In this document: in pieces, positions 7,517-24,381 of the stretch | Layout: the number at the start of each line of letters is the position of its first letter | Position numbering within the stretch: position 1 is the stretch's first letter | Source: Chloroflexota bacterium | GTDB taxonomy: Bacteria; Chloroflexota; Anaerolineae; Anaerolineales; Villigracilaceae | Direction of reading: 5' to 3' | Length of the DNA stretch: 38,268 nucleotides | Assembly (NCBI GenBank): GCA_016235445.1 | Contig: JACRLB010000049.1 | Coordinates: 1 to 38,268 of the forward strand | The notes under the pieces: generated by a model | The model's input: only the letters and a program-made list of their open reading frames with translations | Told to the model about the DNA's origin: nothing | Databases searched by the model: none | Position numbers and translations under genes: made by a program

Positions 7517-7568
7517 ATAAAATTATTTGAAAGAATTTTGCTGGTAAAAAATCAAGAGAAGAGGAGCC

Positions 7569-7826
7569 ATGTTCGTGCCTGATTCAATTCAACTTCATTT
7601 ACTGCGGCCGGGCCAGCGTGCGGTTATTACTCGAATCAACGGCGCGCGCGCGTTGCGCAGGCGTTTTGTGGAAATGGGCATCGTCAAAGGGGAGACGATT
7701 TTGATCGAGCGTAACGCGCCGCTGGGCGACCCCGTTGAATATTTCATCAAAGGTTATCACCTGGCGCTGCGCAAAGAGGAAGCCGCGCAGATCGAAGTGA
7801 TCTTGCACGAAGGTGAAAATGACTGA
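7569..7826 (+). CDS. feoA: FeoA (ferrous iron transport accessory protein)
   Basis: An 85-residue SH3-like FeoA protein: LHLLRPGQRAVITRINGA, LRRRFVEMGIVKGETILIERNAPLGDPVEYFIKGYHLALRKEEAAQIEV. FeoA proteins are thought to modulate FeoB through its cytoplasmic GTPase region. A gagg Shine-Dalgarno lies 5 nt before the ATG. The coding sequence overlaps the FeoB GTPase gene by 8 nt, so translation is coupled. It heads the first of two feo loci in the window. Confidence 0.93.
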   Translation: MFVPDSIQLHLLRPGQRAVITRINGARALRRRFVEMGIVKGETILIERNAPLGDPVEYFIKGYHLALRKEEAAQIEVILHEGEND

Positions 7827-8331
7827 CCTGACCATTGCGCTGGCGGGCAACCCAAACGCGGGCAAAACCACGATCTTCAACGCGTTGACGGGTCTGCATC
7901 AACACACGGGCAACTGGCCCGGGAAAACGGTTGAGAAAAAAGAGGGTGAAATTAAATTCGAGAATTTGAATATCAACATTGTGGATTTGCCAGGCACCTA
8001 CAGCCTCACGGCGTATTCCCCCGAAGAGATCATCGCGCGTGATTACATCATCGAAGAACATCCCGATGTGGTCATCAATGTAGTGGATGCCACCAACCTC
8101 GAACGCAATTTGTATTTGACGGTTCAAATTTTAGAACTGGATGTTCCCGTGGTTTTGGCGTTGAACATGAATGACGCTTTGCAAAAAGACGGCGCAAAAA
8201 TAAACCTCGAAAATCTTTCGCGCCTGCTGGGCGATATTCCCGTCGTTTCCACCACCGCGAATCGCGGCGCGGGAATTTCTGATCTGATCGCAAAAGCTGT
8301 TCAAGCCGCGCGTAAAAAAGAGGCGGCATGA
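7819..8331 (+). CDS. feoB: FeoB GTPase domain as a separate protein
   Basis: A 170-residue stand-alone G domain. G1 is GNPNAGKTTIFNALTG, the FeoB signature HQHTGNWPGKTV follows, G3 is DLPGTYSL, G4 is NMND and G5 lies near VSTTANRGAGI. It ends at AARKKEAA just after G5, before the helical GDI domain and membrane part, which are encoded by the next gene overlapping at ATGA. Canonical FeoB is one chain of about 700-800 residues. The start at 7819 follows aaggtg; an in-frame GTG at 7813 is also possible. The split is real rather than a frameshift, because the next gene has its own ATG and gagg ribosome site. Confidence 0.93.
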   Translation: MTDLTIALAGNPNAGKTTIFNALTGLHQHTGNWPGKTVEKKEGEIKFENLNINIVDLPGTYSLTAYSPEEIIARDYIIEEHPDVVINVVDATNLERNLYLTVQILELDVPVVLALNMNDALQKDGAKINLENLSRLLGDIPVVSTTANRGAGISDLIAKAVQAARKKEAA

Positions 8332-10016
8332 GTACGCCCGCGCAATCTTTTTTCCGTCTTGATTATGGCGGCAAGCTCGAACGCGAGATCGCGCGAATGC
8401 TGGCCCTGTTTGAAGAAATTAAATTCGATACGGGTCGTTATCCCCAACGCTGGCTGGCGATCAAATTGCTGGAAGCTGATGCCGATATTCTTGAGCGGGT
8501 GCAGTCCATGCCCAATGGCGGGCAGGTGATTGCCGCGGCGCAGGAAAGCGCAGAGAAATTAAAGTCCATGCTGGGGGAGGATGTGGATTTGCTCACCGCC
8601 GACCGCCGCTATGGCTACATCAACGGCGTGGTGCGCCAATCGCTGTATCGTCCGCTGATGGATCGCATCACCTTCACCGACCGCATCGACGACATCGTCA
8701 CGCACAAATGGCTGGGCCTGCCGTTTTTCTTTGCGATCATGTACATCATGTTTCGACTTGTGATCGATGTGTCTGCGCCGTTTTTGGATTGGACGGATGC
8801 GGTGATCAACGGCCCGATTGCGAACTGGCTCTCGTTCCTTCTTAATCTGACAACTGCTCCAGCTTGGATACATTCCCTCGTCATTGACGGAATCGTCGCC
8901 GGGGTGGGAGGCGTTTTGGTCTTCGTCCCAGGTCTGTTGATCCTGTATTTTTTCCTTGCTTTGCTCGAAGATTCTGGGTACATGTCCCGCGCGGCGTTTG
9001 TGATGGATCGTTTCATGCGCGTGGTGGGTTTGCATGGCAAGTCATTCATCCCGATGATCCTCGGCTTTGGGTGTGCCGTCCCCGCCATTTACGCCACGCG
9101 GACAATTGCCAGCCGCCGTGACCGCGTGCTGACCGCTCTGCTCGTGCCGTTGATGTCCTGCTCGGCGCGTTTGCCGGTGTATGTGGTTTTTGGGCTGGCG
9201 TTCTTTGGCGCAAAAGCTGGCACGGTGATCTGGGCGATGTATGCGTTGGGAATACTCGTTGCCATGCTGGCGGGCTTGGTCTTCACCCGCACCATTCTCA
9301 AGCCTGATGTTTCGTCCGCTTTTGTTTTGGAACTGCCGCCATACCGTCAGCCTGCGTTGAAGAGTGTTTTGATTCACATGTGGGAGAACACGCGCGAATT
9401 TGTCCGCAAGGCGGGGACGACGATTCTTTTGGTCTCGGTTGTGATGTGGCTGTTGTTGAATTTGCCGTGGGGTGTGGCCGAACAGCGGAATTCGTATTTT
9501 GGGAAGGTGAGCGGTTTTATCGCTCCTGTGTTTGCCCCGTTGGGATTTGGCAACTGGGAAACAAGCGGCGCGCTGGTTTCTGGGTTTATGGCAAAGGAGA
9601 TTGTCGTCAGCGCCATGAGCCAGGTCTATCTGAGTAACGTGCTTGATAATGAAATTGTTGAACCAGCCATGTTTGGCGAAGACCTGCTCGGCATCGCGAG
9701 CGGCTTTGCGAATGCAACGATCAGATCGGGGAAAATTTTACTCAGCATTATTCCCGGTGTGAATTTGGCGGATGAAGAGTCTGCCACGCAGGATACGGCT
9801 CTCAGCCTCGCCCTGCGTGAGAAATTCAGTCCGTTGAGCGCGGCGGCCTTGCTGGTCTTTGTGCTGTTGTATGTCCCCTGTGTTGCCACGTTGGGCGCGA
9901 TCAAGCATGAGTTTGGAACATCATGGGCTGTCACTTCGGCGGTGTATCAAACGGTTGTGGCGTGGATTGCCGCCTTCATCGTCTTTCAAGGCGGCAGGCT
10001 CCTTGGGCTTGGATAG
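8328..10016 (+). CDS. feoB: FeoB membrane permease part with GDI-like cytosolic domain
   Basis: A 562-residue protein that starts with about 120 residues of helical cytosolic domain (LEREIARMLALFEEIKFDTG, YPQRWLAIKLLEAD) followed by the FeoB permease. Gate motifs are present: LEDSGYMSRAAFVMDRFMR, HGKSFIPMILGFGCAVPAI, TRTIASRRDRVLTALLVPL and MSCSARLPVYVVF, with the conserved Cys kept. A second gate half contains the FMAKEIVVSAMSQVY motif. With the preceding GTPase it reconstitutes one FeoB for Fe2+ import across the cytoplasmic membrane. It overlaps the GTPase gene by 4 nt and is followed 9 nt later by the FeoC-like gene. Confidence 0.95.
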   Translation: MSTPAQSFFRLDYGGKLEREIARMLALFEEIKFDTGRYPQRWLAIKLLEADADILERVQSMPNGGQVIAAAQESAEKLKSMLGEDVDLLTADRRYGYINGVVRQSLYRPLMDRITFTDRIDDIVTHKWLGLPFFFAIMYIMFRLVIDVSAPFLDWTDAVINGPIANWLSFLLNLTTAPAWIHSLVIDGIVAGVGGVLVFVPGLLILYFFLALLEDSGYMSRAAFVMDRFMRVVGLHGKSFIPMILGFGCAVPAIYATRTIASRRDRVLTALLVPLMSCSARLPVYVVFGLAFFGAKAGTVIWAMYALGILVAMLAGLVFTRTILKPDVSSAFVLELPPYRQPALKSVLIHMWENTREFVRKAGTTILLVSVVMWLLLNLPWGVAEQRNSYFGKVSGFIAPVFAPLGFGNWETSGALVSGFMAKEIVVSAMSQVYLSNVLDNEIVEPAMFGEDLLGIASGFANATIRSGKILLSIIPGVNLADEESATQDTALSLALREKFSPLSAAALLVFVLLYVPCVATLGAIKHEFGTSWAVTSAVYQTVVAWIAAFIVFQGGRLLGLG

Positions 10017-17069: not shown

Positions 17070-17113
17070 TAAAATAAAACCTGTCAATGTGATATTTGAC
17101 AGGTTTTATTTTA
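17070..17113. terminator. Bidirectional hairpin at the end of the ZIP operon
   Basis: taaaataaaacctgtcaa (17070-17087) pairs perfectly over 18 bp with ttgacaggttttatttta (17096-17113). The T-rich arm gives a terminator in the minus direction after the ZIP gene and possibly in the plus direction too. It isolates the ZIP operon from arsR-CDF. Confidence 0.8.
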
Positions 17114-17117
17114 CGGA

Positions 17118-17146
17118 AGTGACAGTCGCCTTCAAGGTGGCTGTCA
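17118..17146 (-). terminator. Second hairpin after the ZIP gene
   Basis: gtgacagtcgcc (17118-17129) pairs with ggtggctgtcac (17135-17146) with one mismatch, 10 nt from the ZIP stop codon. Together with the next hairpin it forms a tandem termination structure. Confidence 0.6.
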
Positions 17147-17155
17147 CTTTTGAGT

Positions 17156-18346
17156 CTATTTTATGAAAATGCCTGTGACCCAAAGCATGAGCATGCCTGT
17201 AATGACTCCGCTGAAAATAAAACCTGGCATGGGTTGTTTGACATTGTCTTTTTGAATGATCCTTCCAATTTCAACAGCCACCTGGAAGATTGCGCCTGTG
17301 CCGATGGCGAGGAAGAGAACGGCGAGGAATAGAGATGGAGTGAAGCCGCCGATCCATGCGCCGAGGATGGCGGGTGCGCCGCCGAGCAGTCCCAGCAACG
17401 CCAGTTGGCGAATGTTCGGGCGGTCGCGCAGGATGGGCGCGATGATGCCGAGTCCTTCGGTGATGTTTTGGATGATGAACCCAACGACGAGGAATGTGCC
17501 CAGCGCGATCTCGCCGACGTTGTAGGCCGCGCCGATGGCAAGCCCTTCGCCGAGGTTGTGGATGCCAATGCCGAGGGCAATTCTCCAGGCGATGTTCAGG
17601 CGTTGCGATGATTCGGAGCGGTCTGATGATTTGGGGCTGTCGATCATTTCGAGGAGCATGTAGGTGGCAACTGCGCCGATGCCGATCAACCCGATTCCCT
17701 GAAATGTGGATGGGACTTCTGCCGCTTGTTCGAGAGCTTCGATGAAAGTATCCAGCCCAAGAAAAATCAGCAGGCCAACAGTGACAGCCATCAGGAAGGT
17801 CATCCATTGTTTGCCGAGGGTGCGAAGCGCGGGAAGCCAGAAGATTCCAAGAAAGATCGGGATGACTCCAACATACAAACCGATCAGCGTGAAGCTCCAA
17901 AATGTTTTTGCTTCTGGCGCGGGGGTTTCAAATGCAACAGGAATCATCACATCAAACGGGACGGCGTTGCTGGTGAAAACGCGCACGGCGTAGGCTTCGC
18001 CTTCCGTCCACGCATAATTAACGGTGATAAGCGCTTTGCCAAGCCGTGGAATGGTGGCGCTGGGCGTGACTTCAAATGGCATCACCGCTTCGTTGACGAT
18101 GACTTGCGCAATGTTCAATTCGGCGGGGCCGGTGTTTTGAACATTCAATTCGATATGTCCGCGGGCGAGGTGATATCGTTCGATGGTCAGGCTTTCGATG
18201 GGTGCGGGGGAAGTGAGATCGAGTCCGCCGCCAGTTTTGAGGAAGAGGACAATCACTCCAGCGAGGAGAATGATTGGGAGCAGAAGCAGGATGAAGGTCT
18301 GGAAGGTGAAGCGGCTCTTTGTCGTGGGGGAGGTTTGGTCGGTCAT
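17156..18346 (-). CDS. ZIP-family metal permease with extracytoplasmic beta domain
   Basis: A 396-residue protein. TM1 (about 17-37) is followed by an extracytoplasmic beta-rich domain of about 100 residues (about 45-142), then the ZIP transporter core. The metal-site motifs are GIHNLGEGLAIG in TM4 (H263, N264, E267) and IIQNITEGLGIIAP in TM5 (Q293, N294, E297). Canonical ZIPs have His-Asn-x-Pro-Glu-Gly in TM5, so the His is Gln and the Pro is Thr here. It is expected to move a divalent metal into the cytoplasm. Its start has an aaggag site overlapping the stop of the multicopper oxidase gene, so the two are co-translated. The extra domain is absent from standard ZIPs. Metal preference cannot be read from sequence. 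Confidence 0.85.
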   Translation of the reverse strand: MTDQTSPTTKSRFTFQTFILLLLPIILLAGVIVLFLKTGGGLDLTSPAPIESLTIERYHLARGHIELNVQNTGPAELNIAQVIVNEAVMPFEVTPSATIPRLGKALITVNYAWTEGEAYAVRVFTSNAVPFDVMIPVAFETPAPEAKTFWSFTLIGLYVGVIPIFLGIFWLPALRTLGKQWMTFLMAVTVGLLIFLGLDTFIEALEQAAEVPSTFQGIGLIGIGAVATYMLLEMIDSPKSSDRSESSQRLNIAWRIALGIGIHNLGEGLAIGAAYNVGEIALGTFLVVGFIIQNITEGLGIIAPILRDRPNIRQLALLGLLGGAPAILGAWIGGFTPSLFLAVLFLAIGTGAIFQVAVEIGRIIQKDNVKQPMPGFIFSGVITGMLMLWVTGIFIK

Positions 18347-18359
18347 TATCGGCTTCTCC

Positions 18360-19427
18360 TTACGCTGATACCACTTCAAACATGCCATTCCAGCCGAGTT
18401 CTGCGAACTCCGTCACGTGCGCGTGGAACATGTACATGCCTGGATATTTGTAGCTGAATTCCAAAATGCCGCGCTGTGCCTGGCCTTGAATGATGGTGTC
18501 GGTAAATTCGGACGGTGTGAGGCTGGTGCCCGTGGGATAGTAGTGAAAGAAATTTGCGTGCAGATGAAAAGAGTTGAGCAGGTCGAACTCGAGAATGTTG
18601 ACGAGATAGATGCGCACGGTTTCGCCGACTTTGATCTGGATGGGATGGTTTTGATAGTAGAACGGGATGCCGTTGACGGCGTAGAAATCATTGGCGTCAT
18701 CGAAGTCGATGTCGATGCCGTGCATGACCATGACCATTTCCCTGTCCACGCGCGGACGGCCTTCCTTGGGATCGACGACGAATGCGCCGTAGAGTCCTTT
18801 TGCGATGTGGCGCGCGAGAGGGAAAACGTGGCAGTGATACAGATGCAAGCCAAATGGCTCGGCATCGAATTCATAAATAAATTCTTCACCGGGGTTCACT
18901 GTTCCGCCGGGGCCTGTGCCGGGCACGCCGTCCATTTCGCTGGGGTGGACGCCGTGAAAGTGCATGGAGTGCGGATGGTCACTGCCGTTCTTGAAATGGA
19001 TGCGAATGCGGTCGCCTTCGGTGGCGCGGATGGCGGGGCCGGGGATGCGCCCGTTGTACGTCCATGCGGGGAAGTCTATGCCTGGGACGATTTCGATGTT
19101 TTTGTTGACGGTGACAATTTCATATTCGCGCAGGGTTTGGCCGTTGGGGAGTGTGGACGTTTTTCCGTAATCAAAATCGGTGAGGATGTCTCCCGGGTTG
19201 AAGCCGTTTCTTTCGTGGTTCACGTCGCCTGTGCCGGGCAGGCCTTCGCCATGTTCCATTCCCGAAAAAGCGTCTGGACGATGTGGCGTGGGTGTTTGCA
19301 GAAAATGTTTTTTGTGATCTGCTTTTTCAGCAGGCTTGAGGTTGGTGAGGGCAACACTGCCTGCCGCGGATAAAATTCCGAACCCGCCTAGTTTGAGTAG
19401 GTCTCTTCTTGAAAGTTTGTTTTTCAT
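18360..19427 (-). CDS. Tat-exported two-domain multicopper oxidase
   Basis: A 355-residue protein with a twin-arginine signal (SRRDLLKLGGFGILSAAG), so it folds with copper before export. Cupredoxin domain 1 has SMHFHGVH (H156, H158, H161) and LYHCHVFPLARHIAKGL (H198, C199, H200, H207). Domain 2 has FHLH (H288, H290) and FHAH (H335, H337). These supply one type-1 copper and the type-2/3 ligands. The axial position of the type-1 site is Leu212, not Met, as in higher-potential laccase-like oxidases. Two-domain members include small laccases and nitrite reductase relatives. Lying between FeoB and a ZIP permease, a metal (ferroxidase) role is inferred. An agagg ribosome site precedes the ATG. Confidence 0.9.
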   Translation of the reverse strand: MKNKLSRRDLLKLGGFGILSAAGSVALTNLKPAEKADHKKHFLQTPTPHRPDAFSGMEHGEGLPGTGDVNHERNGFNPGDILTDFDYGKTSTLPNGQTLREYEIVTVNKNIEIVPGIDFPAWTYNGRIPGPAIRATEGDRIRIHFKNGSDHPHSMHFHGVHPSEMDGVPGTGPGGTVNPGEEFIYEFDAEPFGLHLYHCHVFPLARHIAKGLYGAFVVDPKEGRPRVDREMVMVMHGIDIDFDDANDFYAVNGIPFYYQNHPIQIKVGETVRIYLVNILEFDLLNSFHLHANFFHYYPTGTSLTPSEFTDTIIQGQAQRGILEFSYKYPGMYMFHAHVTEFAELGWNGMFEVVSA

Positions 19428-19447
19428 TTTTACCTCTAAGTTTGTAG

Positions 19448-19480
19448 ATTCGTAATTGGTAAATTGGTGATTGGTAATTG
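19448..19480. repeat. Degenerate tandem repeat, unit close to attggtaa
   Basis: Four degenerate copies of a/gttggtaa lie in the 54-bp gap between feoB and the multicopper oxidase gene. No promoter is seen, consistent with one operon. Confidence 0.45.
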
Positions 19481-19481
19481 A

Positions 19482-20885
19482 CTACACCCAGCCCAACAGC
19501 TTTGCGATACTTGCGGTGAGGAAGGTGACTAAAAATGCCGTGCCCAGGGTGATGACCACGCTCAAGGTTGCCCATTTGTAGCTTTTGGTTTCCTTGTAGA
19601 TGGTGATGACGGTCGTGGCGCATGGGTTGTGCAGAAGGGCAAACAACATCAGGTTGATGGCGGTGAGCATCGTCCAGCCGTTGGCGTTGACGAGCAGGTC
19701 GAAAATTGCGTTGTTCGATGACGGCCCGTTGATCATCATGCCTGCGCCCATGTAGACCATCATCATGGTCGGGACGACGATCTCGTTGGCAGGGATGGCG
19801 ATGATGTAGGCCAGCAAAATCACTCCGTCCAACCCGAGCAACAGCCCGAATGGATTCAGCCAGTCTGCGATCATGCGCGCGAGATTTGAATCTCCCAGGT
19901 GAATATTCGCCAAAATCCAGATGATCGCTCCCGCGGGGGCGGCGGTTTGCATGGCGCGCCAGAGCACGAAGATGGTGCGGTCGATGATGGAGGAGTAGAG
20001 GATGCGCCCGATGTTTGGTTTGCGGTATGGCGGAAGTTCCAGGGTGAAGGCCGAGGCTTCGCCTTTGAGAACCGTGCGGGATAACAGCCACGACATGAGG
20101 AAGGTGAACGCCACGCCGATCAAGACCACGCCGACCACTGTTCCAGCGGCGATGAAGGAGGTCAATGCCGGGGGGAAGGCCGCCGCCACAAAAACAGTGG
20201 CAAGCATAATTAAAGTCGGGAAGCGCCCGTTGCAGGGGACGAAGTTGTTGGTCAGGATGGCGATCAATCTTTCGCGCGGCGAGTCGATGACGCGAGTCGC
20301 CACCACGCCTGCCGCGTTGCACCCAAATCCCATTGCCATCGTCAGCGATTGTTTGCCGTGCGCGCCTGTTTTCTTGAACATCCAATCGAGGTTGAAGGCT
20401 ACGCGCGGCAGGTAGCCGAGGTCTTCGAGGAAGGTGAAGGCGGGGAAGAAGATCATCATTGGCGGGAGCATGACGCTGATGACCCAGGCGAGGCCAAGAT
20501 AGATGCCATCCCACAGGAAGCCTGTCAGCCACCAGGGGATGCCAATTTGAGTGAAGAGGTTTCGCCCAAGATCGCCCAGCGAAAATAGTACGGTTGCAAT
20601 CGCGTTGGAAACCACGTTTGCGCCTGAGACGGTCAGCCAGATGATGGCGCCCAGCAAAAGAAGCATGATCGGCAATCCCGTGATCGGGGAGGTGACGAGG
20701 CGGTCTATCTTTTGGTCGAGATCGTATCTTTTGTCTGTTGCGGTTTTCACGGCGCGGTTCGCCACTTTTTCCGCTTCGCTGTAAATGGATTTGACGATCT
20801 CATCGCGAAAGCCAGTGGATAAATTGTTGCGGAGCGATTCCGCTTTGGAGATGATGTCGTTGGGGGTGATGGTTGTGTTTGACAT
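19482..20885 (-). CDS. feoB: FeoB membrane permease part, second locus
   Basis: A 467-residue permease. An N-terminal cytosolic helical stretch (about 1-70; AVKTATDKRYDLDQKIDRLV, the usual lead-in to FeoB TM1) is followed by gate domains with FLEDLGYLPRVAFNLDWMFK, HGKQSLTMAMGFGCNAAGVV, SPRERLIAILTNNF and VPCNGRFPTLIML. The second half has the ANEIVVPTMMMVYMG motif. The PCNGRFP gate differs from the SCSARLP gate of the first FeoB, marking a distinct subtype whose substrate may differ (some second FeoBs have been linked to Mn2+). Its GTPase is the separate upstream gene, 80 bp away. Confidence 0.92.
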   Translation of the reverse strand: MSNTTITPNDIISKAESLRNNLSTGFRDEIVKSIYSEAEKVANRAVKTATDKRYDLDQKIDRLVTSPITGLPIMLLLLGAIIWLTVSGANVVSNAIATVLFSLGDLGRNLFTQIGIPWWLTGFLWDGIYLGLAWVISVMLPPMMIFFPAFTFLEDLGYLPRVAFNLDWMFKKTGAHGKQSLTMAMGFGCNAAGVVATRVIDSPRERLIAILTNNFVPCNGRFPTLIMLATVFVAAAFPPALTSFIAAGTVVGVVLIGVAFTFLMSWLLSRTVLKGEASAFTLELPPYRKPNIGRILYSSIIDRTIFVLWRAMQTAAPAGAIIWILANIHLGDSNLARMIADWLNPFGLLLGLDGVILLAYIIAIPANEIVVPTMMMVYMGAGMMINGPSSNNAIFDLLVNANGWTMLTAINLMLFALLHNPCATTVITIYKETKSYKWATLSVVITLGTAFLVTFLTASIAKLLGWV

Positions 20886-20905
20886 AATTTTCTCTGGGAG
20901 GTAGA

Positions 20906-20949
20906 TAACTCGTAACTCGTAACTTGTTTCTCGTAACTCGTCTCTCGTA
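20906..20949. repeat. Degenerate tandem repeat, unit taactcg
   Basis: The 80-bp spacer between the two halves of the second FeoB contains about five copies of taactcg/tttctcg. It is low-complexity and non-coding, and lies exactly at the split between the FeoB genes. Confidence 0.5.
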
Positions 20950-20965
20950 TCAGCGCTTGCCCTGT

Positions 20966-21802
20966 CTACTGTCTTCCTTCCACGCTCATCTTTTTACTGA
21001 ACTGCACATCCTCACGATACTGCCGCGAGACAATCTCGCTGAGTTCACCGCTGGTGATGGCTTTTTGTACGCGCGAGTCGCCATCCAGCAAACGGATCGC
21101 AAGCCAGCGCGCATTGGGGATGCCCGGCGCCATGCTTTCGATCATCGGCACAAGCTCACTGACCGCCATTTGGAATTCTGGCGTGCCTTCCACGCGCATG
21201 GGTTTGACCGGGATGTTGCCTTCGATAACCTCCGCAACGGTGGACAATAACGTAGCGACCCCATGGCCTGAGCGGGCGGTGATGGGGATGGCAGGCACGC
21301 CGAGATCACGCGAAAGACTGCGCGTGTCCACTTCCATTCCTTTGCGGCGCGCTTCGTCCATCAGGTTGACCGCCACCACAACCTTGTCTGTAATTTCCAT
21401 CACCTGCATGACGAGATTCAAATTGCGTTCCAGCGCGGTGGCGTCGGTTACAACGATGGTACAACTTGGCTGGCCGAACAAAATGAAATCGCGCGCCACT
21501 TCCTCATCCTGGCTGGCAGATAAAAGTGAGTATGTGCCGGGCAGGTCAACCAGTTTGTATTTCACGTTGTTGAATTGATACCCGCCTTCCGCGCGCGTGA
21601 CGGTCTTGCCAGGCCAGTTGCCCGTGTGCTGTTTGAGTCCCGTCAACGCGTTGAACAAGGTGGATTTCCCCGTGTTCGGGTTGCCAGCCAGCGCCACCAC
21701 GCGTTCGAAATCGCCCACCTTGATTCCCATTTGTTCCAGTTGCGTAAACGCGGGGCAGGTTTCGCAGTGTTCGGTGGGGAGGTTTATTTTTGTGTTTGTC
21801 AT
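20966..21802 (-). CDS. feoB: FeoB GTPase with part of the GDI domain, second locus
   Basis: A 278-residue protein. A short N-terminal extension carries CETC (C13, C16). The G domain has GNPNTGKSTLFNALTG (G1), KQHTGNWPGKTV, DLPGTYSLLS (G3), NLMD (G4) and a SGHG segment near G5. Unlike the first locus, about 80 helical residues follow (ARWLAIRLLDGDSRVQKAI), so it retains part of the GDI-like domain and the split point is different. It begins 10 nt after the DtxR-FeoA gene, with a ggaga ribosome site. It is predicted to drive the permease encoded next. Confidence 0.93.
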   Translation of the reverse strand: MTNTKINLPTEHCETCPAFTQLEQMGIKVGDFERVVALAGNPNTGKSTLFNALTGLKQHTGNWPGKTVTRAEGGYQFNNVKYKLVDLPGTYSLLSASQDEEVARDFILFGQPSCTIVVTDATALERNLNLVMQVMEITDKVVVAVNLMDEARRKGMEVDTRSLSRDLGVPAIPITARSGHGVATLLSTVAEVIEGNIPVKPMRVEGTPEFQMAVSELVPMIESMAPGIPNARWLAIRLLDGDSRVQKAITSGELSEIVSRQYREDVQFSKKMSVEGRQ

Positions 21803-21812
21803 GTGTCTCCGT

Positions 21813-22817
21813 TTAAACTGGCTTTACCCAAATTTGCGAAGCTTGATCATTTCGCAGGGCAATCATCGTTCCACGCACGCGATAAGCGCGTGGTTCGCCG
21901 AAGAAGTTTGCCAGCTCAGGGTGGATGGCAGTTCCAGGGGTCAAGCCAAGATCAAGGAATCTGCGGCGGGTGAATCCCTGCACCGAATCATCCAAAGCCA
22001 CAATCTGCGCCCGCTGACCATGCGTCAACTCGGCCAGCGGAATGGCTTCGCGCTTCAGCATTTCGCTTTCAGGCAGAGCCGTCACATAAATATTCGACGC
22101 CACCGCAGGCGCAAGCTTGTATTCGCTCTCCCCATCGCTCAACACATAACGGTGTGAATTTTTTTCGATAACGCGGATGTCTTGTCCCAGGCGGAGTCCT
22201 GCCGCCAGGATTTGTTGATACGCGAGAGCAGGTTCATCCTCAAGATGAACGATTCGCGCCGGACTTTCAGCCTGCCACGCCGTAATAGGCATTCCCTCCG
22301 CCCGATTCATTTTCCCCTCACGCGAAGGGATGGGGTCGCCGTGTGGGTCGCGGGTGGGGTGTCCCAGCGCCGCATCCAACTCGTTGAGCTGTGCCTCGGT
22401 CAACGAGTGTTCACGCTTCTGCGCCTCCCCGTGGATTTTGTTCAACGGCATCCGCGCTTCGTCTGCCAGATAACGCTCCCACAACCGATGCGCGCGGAGA
22501 ACATGCAGTGCCCAGCGTTCGCCTTCGGCGGTGAGGCGCAACTCAATGCCATGTGATTCCACCAGCCCCTGCGCTTCCATGTGTTCGATGAGCTGTATCG
22601 TCTTTGCGCGGGGCAGGTCCAGCGTCCCGCCAATGGATTCAGGAGTGGCGCGCCTGCCTTGATGCTCGCGATCCAGCAAGTGTTTGAGCGCATCCTCCAC
22701 CTGTTCGCGTTCCTGCGCGGCGCGATAGGATCTGTAAATTGCGGCCAGCCCCACACGCGGAAGGAGAATTGCCGCAAGCAAAATGAGCGCTGTTGCCATC
22801 CAAACGGTGATGTTCAT
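21813..22817 (-). CDS. Membrane-anchored DtxR-like regulator fused to a FeoA domain
   Basis: A 334-residue protein. An N-terminal hydrophobic segment (about 5-27; VWMATALILLAAILLPRVGL) precedes a winged-helix (LKHLLDREHQGRRATPESIG, LDLPRAKTIQLIEHMEAQGLV), a DtxR dimerisation/metal domain (VLRAHRLWERYLADE, EAQKREHSLTEAQLNELDAALGHPTRDPHGDPIP) and a C-terminal SH3/FeoA-like domain (RRRFLDLGLTPGTAI, FGEPRAYRVRGTMIALRNDQ). DtxR-family repressors usually lack a membrane segment. It is first in the operon with FeoB, so it may act as a metal-sensing regulator, or the FeoA domain may contact FeoB at the membrane. The start at 22817 excludes a 20-residue non-hydrophobic extension; its ribosome site is weak. 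Confidence 0.85.
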   Translation of the reverse strand: MNITVWMATALILLAAILLPRVGLAAIYRSYRAAQEREQVEDALKHLLDREHQGRRATPESIGGTLDLPRAKTIQLIEHMEAQGLVESHGIELRLTAEGERWALHVLRAHRLWERYLADEARMPLNKIHGEAQKREHSLTEAQLNELDAALGHPTRDPHGDPIPSREGKMNRAEGMPITAWQAESPARIVHLEDEPALAYQQILAAGLRLGQDIRVIEKNSHRYVLSDGESEYKLAPAVASNIYVTALPESEMLKREAIPLAELTHGQRAQIVALDDSVQGFTRRRFLDLGLTPGTAIHPELANFFGEPRAYRVRGTMIALRNDQASQIWVKPV

Positions 22818-22863
22818 ATTTATCTGCTTCCTACTTTGACAATGCCATATTTCAAAACCTTTT

Positions 22864-22930
22864 ACCACAAAGTCCACAAAGGGTCACAAAGGAGGGCAAA
22901 ATGCTAAAACCAAAGGTTTCCTTCGTGTTA
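22864..22930. repeat. cacaaag-type repeat upstream of the dtxR-feoA operon
   Basis: Three spaced cacaaag words (22866-22890) face an imperfect complement (tccttcgtgtt, about 22919-22929). The 160-bp gap 22818-22977 must also carry the operon promoter, but no clear -10/-35 pair was identified. Confidence 0.5.
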
Positions 22931-22977
22931 CTCACCTGCACTGCAACAAACGCAGTGCGGCGCAAGTGTCGTGACCT

Positions 22978-23574
22978 TCATCGAACTACTTTGGGTAAAA
23001 ATCGACCTGTCCGCTTCATGTATTCTCTATACTCGTCGCCGAATTTTTCGATGAGATTGGCTTCCTCTTTCGGCGTGCGGATTGCCATGGCGATGAACGC
23101 CAATATTCCCAGGGCGGCAATAAACCAGTTGTCTGCCATCAACCCAAAGGAAATGAACAGGGAAGACCCAATGGTGTACAGCGGGTGGCGAACCCAGCGG
23201 TACGGTCCGCTTGTGGACAGCTTATGTTCCTTGCGTGTGGCGCTGGTGGGGGAGATGCCGCCTCCGATACTGCTGAACAGCCAGTAGATCGAGAGACTGC
23301 ATAGAATTCCGACCCCGACCCCAAGCCAGCGGACCCATTCGGGAAGGCCAATCTTCGACCAGACCATCCATTGCGGGTTGAGCAAATACACGAGCGGACT
23401 AAGCCACAGAATCAACCCGCCAAATTTGATGATGTTCATCATGACAAAGCCGTCCACTTTGCGGGAGATTTTCTCGCCTGAGTCCCTATCCGCTTTGCGG
23501 CGGAAATAAGATGAGATGCCTATTCCAGTGAAAAGAGTAAGGGCGGCTAAAATGCGGAAAATGTTTTCGTTCAT
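22978..23574 (-). CDS. ICMT/PEMT-like membrane methyltransferase
   Basis: A 198-residue protein with about five membrane segments. It carries the family core SGPYRWVRHPLYTIGSSL (SAM-binding RHPxY) and the C-terminal EEANLIEKFGDEYREYMKRT with GRFLP. This is the isoprenylcysteine carboxyl methyltransferase/phospholipid methyltransferase-like superfamily; bacterial members methylate lipids or unknown small molecules. It lies 19 nt downstream of the soluble DtxR gene with an agagga ribosome site, so it is probably in the same transcript. The substrate is unknown. Confidence 0.85.
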   Translation of the reverse strand: MNENIFRILAALTLFTGIGISSYFRRKADRDSGEKISRKVDGFVMMNIIKFGGLILWLSPLVYLLNPQWMVWSKIGLPEWVRWLGVGVGILCSLSIYWLFSSIGGGISPTSATRKEHKLSTSGPYRWVRHPLYTIGSSLFISFGLMADNWFIAALGILAFIAMAIRTPKEEANLIEKFGDEYREYMKRTGRFLPKVVR

Positions 23575-23593: not shown

Positions 23594-24265
23594 TTATTTA
23601 TCTACAAATACTTGACTCGTCACCGCCGTCCCCAGCACGATATTTGCCTTTTGGCCTTCGACTTTGATCGTCAGGTTGCCGTCGAACGCGGAATAGTTTT
23701 TGACCACGATCTTTACTTCGGGCACGACGCCGATCTCACGCAGGTGGCGGAGCAAGGCCGGGTCGTCGTCTGATACTCTTCGGACGGTGGCAGTTTCATC
23801 GGTCCGCAATGAAGCGAGCGGACATGATTCGTCGGCGGGCATGGTCAAATCTGCCGTGGGGATTAATTCGCCGTGCGGGTCGCGGGTGGGGTGTCCCAGC
23901 GCTTCGGCCATGCGCGCTTCGAAATCTTCCGAGATCACATGCTCGAGTTTGTCGGCTTCGTGATGCACTTCATCCCACGAATAGCCGAGCGTGTTGACGA
24001 GGAAGGTTTCGAGCAAACGATGATGACGAATGACTTCGAGCGCGGCTTTCTCCCCATTCTTTGTGAGCGTAGCCCCTTGATGTTTTTTGTAAATCACGAG
24101 CGGCGATTTAGTGCTGGCAAGTTTTTGTAACATGCCAGTGACAGAGGCAGGCGCGATGTTAAGCCGCGCGGCCAGATCGTTGGTGCTGGCTGAACCGCCG
24201 TATTCATTCAGTTCATAAATGTGTTTGAGATAATCCTGAATGGATTGGGTGATGGCTTCTGACAT
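23594..24265 (-). CDS. DtxR/MntR-family metal-dependent regulator
   Basis: A 223-residue three-domain regulator. The HTH is in SIQDYLKHIYELNEYGGSAS with LAARLNIAPASVTGMLQKLA. The metal/dimer domain has EVIRHHRLLETFLVNTLGYSWDEVHHEADKLEH, with the conserved Glu/His ligands, and GHPTRDPHGELIP. The C-terminal SH3-like domain includes LLRHLREIGVVPEVKIVV. It binds DNA when loaded with Fe2+ or Mn2+. The start at 24265 has an aaggaa site. Two DtxR-box-like sites lie 44-80 bp upstream, indicating autoregulation and possibly control of the divergent SIS gene. Unlike the 21813-22817 regulator it has no membrane segment. Confidence 0.93.
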   Translation of the reverse strand: MSEAITQSIQDYLKHIYELNEYGGSASTNDLAARLNIAPASVTGMLQKLASTKSPLVIYKKHQGATLTKNGEKAALEVIRHHRLLETFLVNTLGYSWDEVHHEADKLEHVISEDFEARMAEALGHPTRDPHGELIPTADLTMPADESCPLASLRTDETATVRRVSDDDPALLRHLREIGVVPEVKIVVKNYSAFDGNLTIKVEGQKANIVLGTAVTSQVFVDK

Positions 24266-24308: not shown

Positions 24309-24345
24309 TTTAGTCTCACCTAAATTTATTTTAGCCTAGACTAAA
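24309..24345. promoter_or_regulatory. Two tandem DtxR-box-like operators
   Basis: tttagtctcacctaaa (24309-24324) and tttagcctagactaaa (24330-24345) are similar 16-bp imperfect palindromes of the TTTAG-N6-CTAAA type found at DtxR/IdeR/MntR sites. Their starts are 21 bp apart, about two helical turns, so dimers would bind the same DNA face. They sit between the divergent dtxR and SIS-domain genes. Confidence 0.75.
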
Positions 24346-24381
24346 TTTATTGTCAATGGATTCCTGTCGTACAATATTGCC

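Follow-up and report, generated by a model that had tools for sequence, protein, structure and literature searches.

A multicopper oxidase-ZIP permease module in a candidate DtxR-controlled divalent-metal acquisition operon of a Chloroflexota bacterium

Results

The window analysed here is a 38,268-nucleotide stretch of the genome of a Chloroflexota bacterium (Villigracilaceae; assembly GCA_016235445.1, contig JACRLB010000049.1), and a minus-strand gene cluster within it ends with the genes for a two-domain multicopper oxidase and a ZIP-family metal permease. An earlier note on this DNA had proposed that these two genes and the three Feo-type genes before them form an undescribed five-gene metal-uptake operon; we find instead that the oxidase-ZIP pair is the part that recurs across prokaryotes, and that the local transcription unit likely begins further upstream, at a gene for a DtxR-type regulator. 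The cluster contains the following features, in the direction of transcription:

24328-24356, minus: sigma-70-type promoter-like site TTGACA-17-TAAAAT, 5' of the DtxR gene, with 11/12 consensus matches
24330-24345, minus: operator copy 1, TTTAGTCTAGGCTAAA, an exact palindrome overlapping the -10 hexamer
24309-24324, minus: operator copy 2, TTTAGGTGAGACTAAA, an exact palindrome 21 bp from copy 1
23594-24265, minus: DtxR-type repressor with helix-turn-helix (HTH), dimerisation and FeoA domains (Pfam/NCBIfam, ligand alignment)
22978-23574, minus: ICMT/PEMT-like membrane methyltransferase, a recurrent neighbour (Pfam/NCBIfam)
21813-22817, minus: protein with a single predicted transmembrane (TM) helix, a winged helix, and DtxR dimerisation and FeoA domains, here TM-DtxR-FeoA (Pfam Fe_dep_repr_C and FeoA, structure model)
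20966-21802, minus: FeoB G domain with helical cytosolic part, as a separate gene (Pfam FeoB_N and FeoB_Cyto)
19482-20885, minus: FeoB membrane part with motif NNFVPCNGRFP (Pfam Gate and FeoB_C)
18360-19427, minus: two-domain multicopper oxidase with a twin-arginine translocation (Tat) signal and type 1 (T1) copper ligands in domain 1 (Pfam Cu-oxidase_3 and Cu-oxidase_2)
17156-18346, minus: ZIP permease with N-terminal helix, Ig-like outside domain, and motifs HNxGEG and QNxTEG (Pfam Zip, structure model)
17070-17149, minus: two strong, terminator-like hairpins 3' of the ZIP gene (folding energy)

Pfam and NCBIfam searches agreed on the gene names, and much of the earlier description holds. 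The open reading frame (ORF) calls reproduce the coordinates of the five-gene row and its gaps of 10, 80, 54 and 13 nt exactly, all five proteins have Pfam matches for the domains they had been assigned, and the terminator pair after ZIP corresponds to a double hairpin of -37.2 kcal/mol (z -8.3 against shuffles), where a pattern scan lists a terminator for the plus strand only. As for the absence of an internal terminator that had been claimed, the sole internal terminator-like match on the minus strand is a weak 5-bp stem within the ZIP gene. The second hairpin overlaps the -35 element of a promoter-like site before arsR. The ArsR-CDF cassette beyond the hairpins, which also follows the pair in several relatives, has this promoter-like site of its own. 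Two more genes, encoding the ICMT-like protein and the DtxR, lie on the same strand 5' of the five, and the transcription unit is likely to be longer than five genes and to begin at the DtxR gene. The 160-nt gap between the ICMT-like and TM-DtxR-FeoA genes (22818-22977) lacks an operator box and could hold another start, but we favour a single transcript from the DtxR gene onward because that gene lies directly 5' of the TM-DtxR-FeoA gene in several relatives (L230, L232, L239, L240 and L245). ICMT/PEMT-like methyltransferase genes also recur by DtxR, Feo and oxidase genes in Anaerolineales, and near oxidase-ZIP genes on Deinococcus and haloarchaeal plasmids.

To follow the pair beyond the window we gathered loci from genomes of the family, from other Chloroflexota, from a genome collection (the best 80 of at least 552 relatives in several phyla, which lean to close relatives) and from ten plasmid loci, and because the oxidase served as query, adjacency of a ZIP gene was not selected for. 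Pooling gave 157 loci, of which 130 were non-redundant and 129 extended at least 600 nt past the oxidase, one being cut by a contig end; in all 129 a ZIP gene lies on the same strand no more than 700 nt downstream. These loci come from Chloroflexota, Actinomycetota, Spirochaetota, Deinococcota, Pseudomonadota, Cyanobacteriota, Bacillota and haloarchaea, whose pairs are homologous to that of the window, and ZIP follows the oxidase at 14/14 loci from Chloroflexota outside the family. The gap between the two genes is mostly below about 150 nt, with 340-410 nt between model envelopes in L106, L109, L112 and L182; L112 has a 128-aa ORF in this space (7636-8022), and the gaps of L106 and L109 are of similar size. 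Among 150 genomes of the family, a close oxidase orthologue is present in 51, a ZIP in 51 and both in 50; in the oxidase-alone genome only 92 nt separate the gene from the edge of its contig, and in the ZIP-alone genome the match is partial.

Plasmids repeat this pattern. Searches of plasmid records returned 133 oxidase matches (E up to 1e-40) and 148 ZIP matches (E up to 1e-10). In the main genera the two genes are equally frequent (Pseudosulfitobacter 37/37, Rhodococcus 30/30 and Sinorhizobium 10/10), and haloarchaeal queries returned 144 and 146 matches, respectively. At seven plasmid loci fetched after the count, ZIP directly adjoins the oxidase in six; the exception, which falls outside the 130, is the Paroceanicella plasmid pD4M1E (L252), where a transposon annotated with a Mu-type transposase, TniB and TniQ splits the pair and the ZIP gene is shortened. 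On three haloarchaeal plasmids (L249, L250 and L251) DtxR, oxidase, ZIP and plastocyanin genes stand in one row, and their oxidases and ZIPs are ~97-99% identical between genera, as if recently spread.

The five-gene order, for which the earlier note suggested a comparative search in Chloroflexota genomes, appeared at only 5/53 family loci: the window, L066, L071, L082 and L075, the last with broken frames. Elsewhere in the family a contig end truncates one locus (L068), 15 loci have Feo genes close to the pair but differently placed, and 32/53 have no Feo genes in the fetched stretch, some of these stretches being short. We thus reject the five genes as a conserved operon, since their order is local; the best reading is that the conserved unit is the oxidase-ZIP pair, an ancient and separately mobile module. 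In L075 (genome G131) the TM-DtxR-FeoA and FeoB G matches are in pieces and the oxidase and ZIP genes are intact; another copy of the pair is found on the other contig of G131.

As controls we hand-picked 20 other oxidase loci of the same family from weaker matches (124-169 bits; stretches of 4.7-7.5 kb), and at these neither a ZIP neighbour (0/20) nor a DtxR/MntR or Nramp neighbour (0/20) was found. With L223 (<140 bits) left out of the residue comparison, the 19 remaining control oxidases have Thr, Ser and Gln at the T1 positions of domain 1, so ZIP pairing goes with a T1 copper in that domain. Neighbour families within 4 kb were called by homology searches. Besides the regulators considered below, CDF genes were found at 16/130 pair loci and 0/20 control loci. 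Rieske proteins (12/130 vs 4/20) were rejected as a fixed third partner, and copper P1B ATPases (14/130 vs 2/20) as a distinguishing neighbour.

The oxidase has two cupredoxin domains, four His-x-His motifs and T1 Cys and His residues in domain 1, the features of what we take to be a type-C two-domain multicopper oxidase, with copper-ligand roles assigned as is usual for the family. Residues were compared in 125 of the 129 pairs. The T1 residues H153, C199 and H207 and the eight trinuclear His are all invariant (11 positions, 125/125), and the T1 axial position holds Leu in 105 and Met in 20. The twin arginines of the Tat motif are invariant in 20 aligned oxidases of the family, and tatA with tatC, or tatA alone, adjoin two oxidase-ZIP pairs in Bacillota. 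Most of the protein is homologous to the solved structures 3GDC (E 2e-128) and 7RAB (E 3e-117), for which our literature search found no describing paper. 3GDC comes, we believe, from Arthrobacter sp. FB24, where the plasmid gene has a ZIP gene after it and a divergent metal-dependent regulator before it. An oxidase of Rhodococcus opacus, 57% identical to 3GDC, lies upstream of zinc-transporter genes according to the available text of one report (PMC8556283).

The permease combines a PF02535 bundle with the HNxxEG motif of TM4 and the QxxxEG motif of TM5. Its proposed outside domain is borne out by a structure model (mean pLDDT 80, built on 17 sequences), which has a helix at residues 15-41, a beta-sandwich at 53-135 and then the ZIP bundle; the closest solved folds are BbZIP for the bundle and, weakly, the archaellum stator FlaF/FlaG for the outside domain. 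H263, N264, E267, N294 and E297 are kept in 125/125 ZIPs, as is the combination of HN-x-(G/A)-EG with (Q/H)N-x-(T/S)-EG, and the outside domain is present in 125/125 ZIPs passing length filters that would also discard a ZIP without it. Because this domain is shared and the canonical Pro of both motifs is replaced by Gly or Thr, these ZIPs form, by their sequences, a recognisable and distinct subfamily. The window ZIP shares with BbZIP (5TSA and others) the fold and the first-metal-site motifs, and differs from it in the extra helix, the Ig-like domain and the change of PEG to GEG and TEG; at what we take to be the second metal site, on a site numbering that we assume, the acid is aligned with Ala in this comparison. 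Pairwise distances among oxidases and among ZIPs correlate at 0.89, a value that shared descent alone could give.

A DtxR/MntR-family gene lies within 4 kb of the pair at 73/130 loci, against none of the 20 control loci, which makes this family the commonest of the neighbours tested. Near the pair, 9/17 annotated plasmid loci show a 'metal-dependent transcriptional regulator' or mntR (Deinococcus, Sinorhizobium, Pseudosulfitobacter, Arthrobacter, Rubrobacter, three haloarchaea and Shinella), with mntR annotated as divergent from the pair on the Sinorhizobium, Pseudosulfitobacter and Shinella plasmids. We tallied, partly by eye, the metal ligands of the nearest regulator at the 76 loci whose fetched sequence includes one (at distances of up to 7 kb): the position of DtxR M10 holds D in 68, N in 6 and A in 1, with one unread and no M, and that of C102 holds E in 49, D in 17 and C in 4, with six unread. 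Published ligand types are M10/C102 for iron-activated DtxR, D8 with E for MntR and N10/E102 for TroR, and a DtxR M10D/C102E variant answers to Mn2+, and also to Fe2+ when iron is raised (available text of PMC2628430). The iron-type pair is absent from all neighbouring regulators read, and the match of their ligand positions to the other types suggests that the regulators associated with the pair are mostly Mn-type or Mn/Fe-type.

The DtxR of the window has Asp at both of these positions. Its start is ATG 24265 as read from the sequence, where ORF calling begins at GTG 24319, and it has the HTH, dimerisation and metal-binding domains of a DtxR/MntR repressor together with a nearby conserved palindrome. 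Domain order and ligand positions are like those of TroR, MntR and DtxR, but the operator differs, being TTTAG-N6-CTAAA and often a 21-bp tandem. This DtxR retains a conserved recognition helix, a region in which conservation drops in TM-DtxR-FeoA, and the upstream protein thus appears the better repressor candidate for the operon.

The promoter-like site before the DtxR gene is the best of 10 in the 9-kb region scanned, and of only three exact TTTAG-N6-CTAAA sites in the 4.13-Mb genome two are the copies before this gene. Across 146 partly redundant loci (1.79 Mb) we counted 98 exact boxes, where base composition predicts ~1. A box stands near the start of the oxidase or DtxR gene at 36/48 non-redundant family loci, 22 of them with an exact box in the 400 nt before the oxidase gene, and another 14 with a box only before a DtxR gene (up to 950 nt); six boxes in four loci lie elsewhere, and nine loci have no exact box, among them L065, L068, L073 and L082, which end at contig ends. 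Where boxes come in close pairs, 13/16 distinct pairs are spaced exactly 21 bp. A stricter box pattern matches in 37/57 genomes of the genus, and at all 20 genus sites that were fetched a DtxR gene lies within 0.8 kb downstream of the box. Feo-block genes come next at nine of these 20, and since eight of the nine are from genomes without a close oxidase orthologue, we propose that in this genus the box and regulator serve Feo genes too, and that the oxidase-ZIP pair joins this regulon.

The FeoB features are spread over two genes, the G domain in one and Gate with FeoB_C in the other, neither of which alone reaches the TIGR00437 cut-off; the G gene recurs at 18 other family loci, one of them incomplete, and the membrane part matched no solved structure by sequence. 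TM-DtxR-FeoA had been described as a membrane-anchored DtxR-FeoA regulator. Its hydrophobic N-terminus, judged a TM helix from the sequence and a structure model built on 19 sequences, stands, as do the dimerisation and FeoA domains, which match in 19/19 orthologues. A repressor role is less likely, for conservation among the orthologues falls in the recognition-helix columns. The DtxR HTH model PF01325 matches weakly in 7/19 orthologues and, at E up to 1, does not match the window protein; weak matches to other winged-helix models occur in more of the orthologues, and the structure model retains a winged helix. The unconserved recognition-helix region points to a Feo accessory protein rather than a repressor, probably an FeoA/FeoC-like partner of the split FeoB. 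Stretches ~25% identical to the window ZIP (L239:8737-9303, L242:3184-3777 and L051:1395-2066) sit between the TM-DtxR-FeoA and FeoB G genes of the Feo block in some relatives. The window has a second feo locus on the plus strand (7540-10016), comprising FeoA (start ~7540, by eye), FeoB G (7813-8331) and the remainder of FeoB (8328-10016), the two FeoB genes overlapping by 4 nt. Its split point differs from that of the operon FeoB, its motif reads GFGCAVPAI...MSCSARLP where the operon FeoB has GFGCNAAGV...VPCNGRFP, and the TTTAG-N6-CTAAA box is absent there.

Discussion

The notion of a metal-uptake operon survives in altered form: DtxR-type operators upstream and hairpins after ZIP bound a metal-regulated, uptake-type cluster, and the five-gene set as a unit is not supported. 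We read the cluster as a DtxR-controlled divalent-metal acquisition operon that ends in an ancient mobile oxidase-ZIP module, here joined to Feo, and judge this reading about evenly poised between right and wrong. The operon would comprise, in order, the genes for DtxR, the ICMT-like protein, the TM-anchored winged-helix-FeoA protein, FeoB (G), FeoB (membrane), the oxidase and ZIP. At low cytoplasmic Mn2+/Fe2+, apo-DtxR would leave both operators over the -10/+1 region and transcription would follow, a step for which operator and regulator are recognised by sequence, while binding and the direction of control are presumed. By way of its conserved first metal site the ZIP would bring a divalent metal into the cell, as the predicted fold and ligands suggest; Mn2+ and/or Fe2+ is the most likely substrate, which is again presumed. 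At the outer face the Tat-exported type-C oxidase would act as dedicated partner of the ZIP, a partnership to which conservation points, and would most likely oxidise Fe2+ and/or Cu+ with O2, which would shield the ZIP from readily oxidised competitors or release the wanted metal from its ligands. FeoB and the TM-anchored FeoA-like protein would be a second importer in the same regulon in this lineage. A more specific proposal is a system for Mn2+ (or Mn2+/Fe2+) found throughout prokaryotes under MntR/DtxR control, in which the oxidase would be a redox selectivity filter: by oxidising Fe2+ and Cu+ where the ZIP opens to the outside, it would leave Mn2+, which is harder to oxidise, as the divalent substrate. 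This seems to us doubtful.

Several observations weigh against an uptake operon of this kind. A reversed control pattern is commoner than the box in this genome (13 vs 3 sites), and the stricter pattern has ~44 sites against ~78 for the reversed control over the 57 genus genomes; we thus dropped box counts per genome as evidence, and it is the position of the boxes, not their number, that carries weight. Of the scanned loci from outside Chloroflexota, only L159, L176 and L194 carry the exact box. For Actinomycetota we rejected a common operator, since scanning 30 upstream regions for palindromes yielded no convincing candidate. No DtxR/MntR gene lies within 4 kb at 57/130 loci, and 8/17 plasmid loci lack such a regulator, with ArsR, Fur, another or none nearby. 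Nramp genes within 4 kb (19/130 vs 0/20) make a weak difference, and the control stretches are shorter. Copper genes (P1B ATPase, SCO, PCu(A)C) occur near some plasmid copies. Removal of Fe2+ by an oxidase encoded next to a Feo importer looks like a contradiction unless this FeoB carries Mn2+ or works under other oxygen conditions. Two archaeal reports add to these points in their available text: in Nitrososphaera viennensis, MCO1 and the adjacent permease rise moderately under copper limitation (PMC7785015), and in Haloferax mediterranei two operons of an oxidase, a membrane protein and a plastocyanin/halocyanin-like protein rise under denitrification, by log2 ~7 and ~3 (PMC11218638). The Haloferax rise is hard to square with an O2-using enzyme, and these operons, likened to ours by description, may not be the same pair.

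These archaeal data keep copper acquisition a live rival, although we consider it unlikely. Here the oxidase would turn Cu+ into Cu2+ and the ZIP would import Cu2+, as has been proposed, in a Fet3-like cooperation of oxidase and permease, for the MCO1-ZIP pair of ammonia-oxidising archaea, with the moderate induction noted above in support (PMC7785015; PMC7819960). By description that pair resembles ours, being a two-domain oxidase with a T1 axial Leu beside a zinc/iron permease gene, and differs in that it was proposed for copper, with no DtxR or Feo link mentioned in the available text. Copper chaperone or SCO genes stand by some plasmid copies of our pair, and plastocyanin adjoins three haloarchaeal pairs. 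The commonest tested neighbour is nevertheless a DtxR/MntR regulator with Mn- or Mn/Fe-type ligands rather than a copper sensor; in this genus the pair and the feo genes have an operator in common, and copper P1B ATPases occur just as often at the control loci. Quite unlikely, in our view, is a detoxification cassette, in which the oxidase would clear toxic Cu+ or Fe2+ from the surroundings of the cell, with the ZIP only replacing metals lost under heavy-metal stress. Such a role would suit the frequent occurrence on plasmids, where 74/133 oxidase records are predicted conjugative, the CDF, P1B ATPase or copper genes near plasmid copies, the excess of CDF genes over controls, and the ArsR-CDF cassette next to the pair in the window and several relatives; it fits poorly with the separate promoter-like site of that cassette after the hairpins and with the operator that the pair has in common with feo genes in this genus, DtxR/MntR regulators being classical repressors of uptake.

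The likeness to yeast Fet3-Ftr1 that the earlier note drew holds in part. Both systems place a multicopper oxidase outside the cell and pair it with a metal permease, but the window has a two-domain oxidase, a ZIP in place of an FTR1-family permease, and an expected divalent substrate. In chemical terms the analogy fits poorly, since ZIPs are carriers of divalent ions and the permease matches only Pfam Zip. For the MCO1-ZIP pair the comparison had already been published, as the available text of that paper indicates (PMC7785015). A true analogue, whose oxidase would make M3+ from Fe2+ (or Mn2+) and hand it directly to the ZIP, strikes us as very improbable. The near-obligate pairing, a ZIP outside domain that could dock the oxidase and the operon shared with feoB would be in keeping with it, as would a report on Pseudomonas putida GB-1, in which Mn oxidation increased the Mn content of the cells; its available text does not name a ZIP (PMC3798386). 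Set against these are the BbZIP fold of the permease and the lack of any other Pfam domain in it at E 0.001.

In a literature search whose coverage left out most subscription journals, we recognised no paper on cross-phylum linkage of oxidase, ZIP and DtxR, and the available parts of two further papers do not name the oxidase-ZIP pair (PMC9240420; PMC4531530). Linkage as regular as this across bacteria and haloarchaea is seen for few gene pairs, and here a copper enzyme is joined to a metal permease with an Mn/Fe-type regulator as frequent neighbour, which points to a widespread, little-studied route of Mn/Fe uptake. If the pair works as one system, prokaryotic multicopper oxidases would gain a role in uptake beyond copper defence, and the substrates of oxidase and ZIP would be testable in hosts such as Arthrobacter, Deinococcus, Sinorhizobium and Peribacillus. 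Such a system would also bear on the proposal of copper uptake by ammonia-oxidising archaea.

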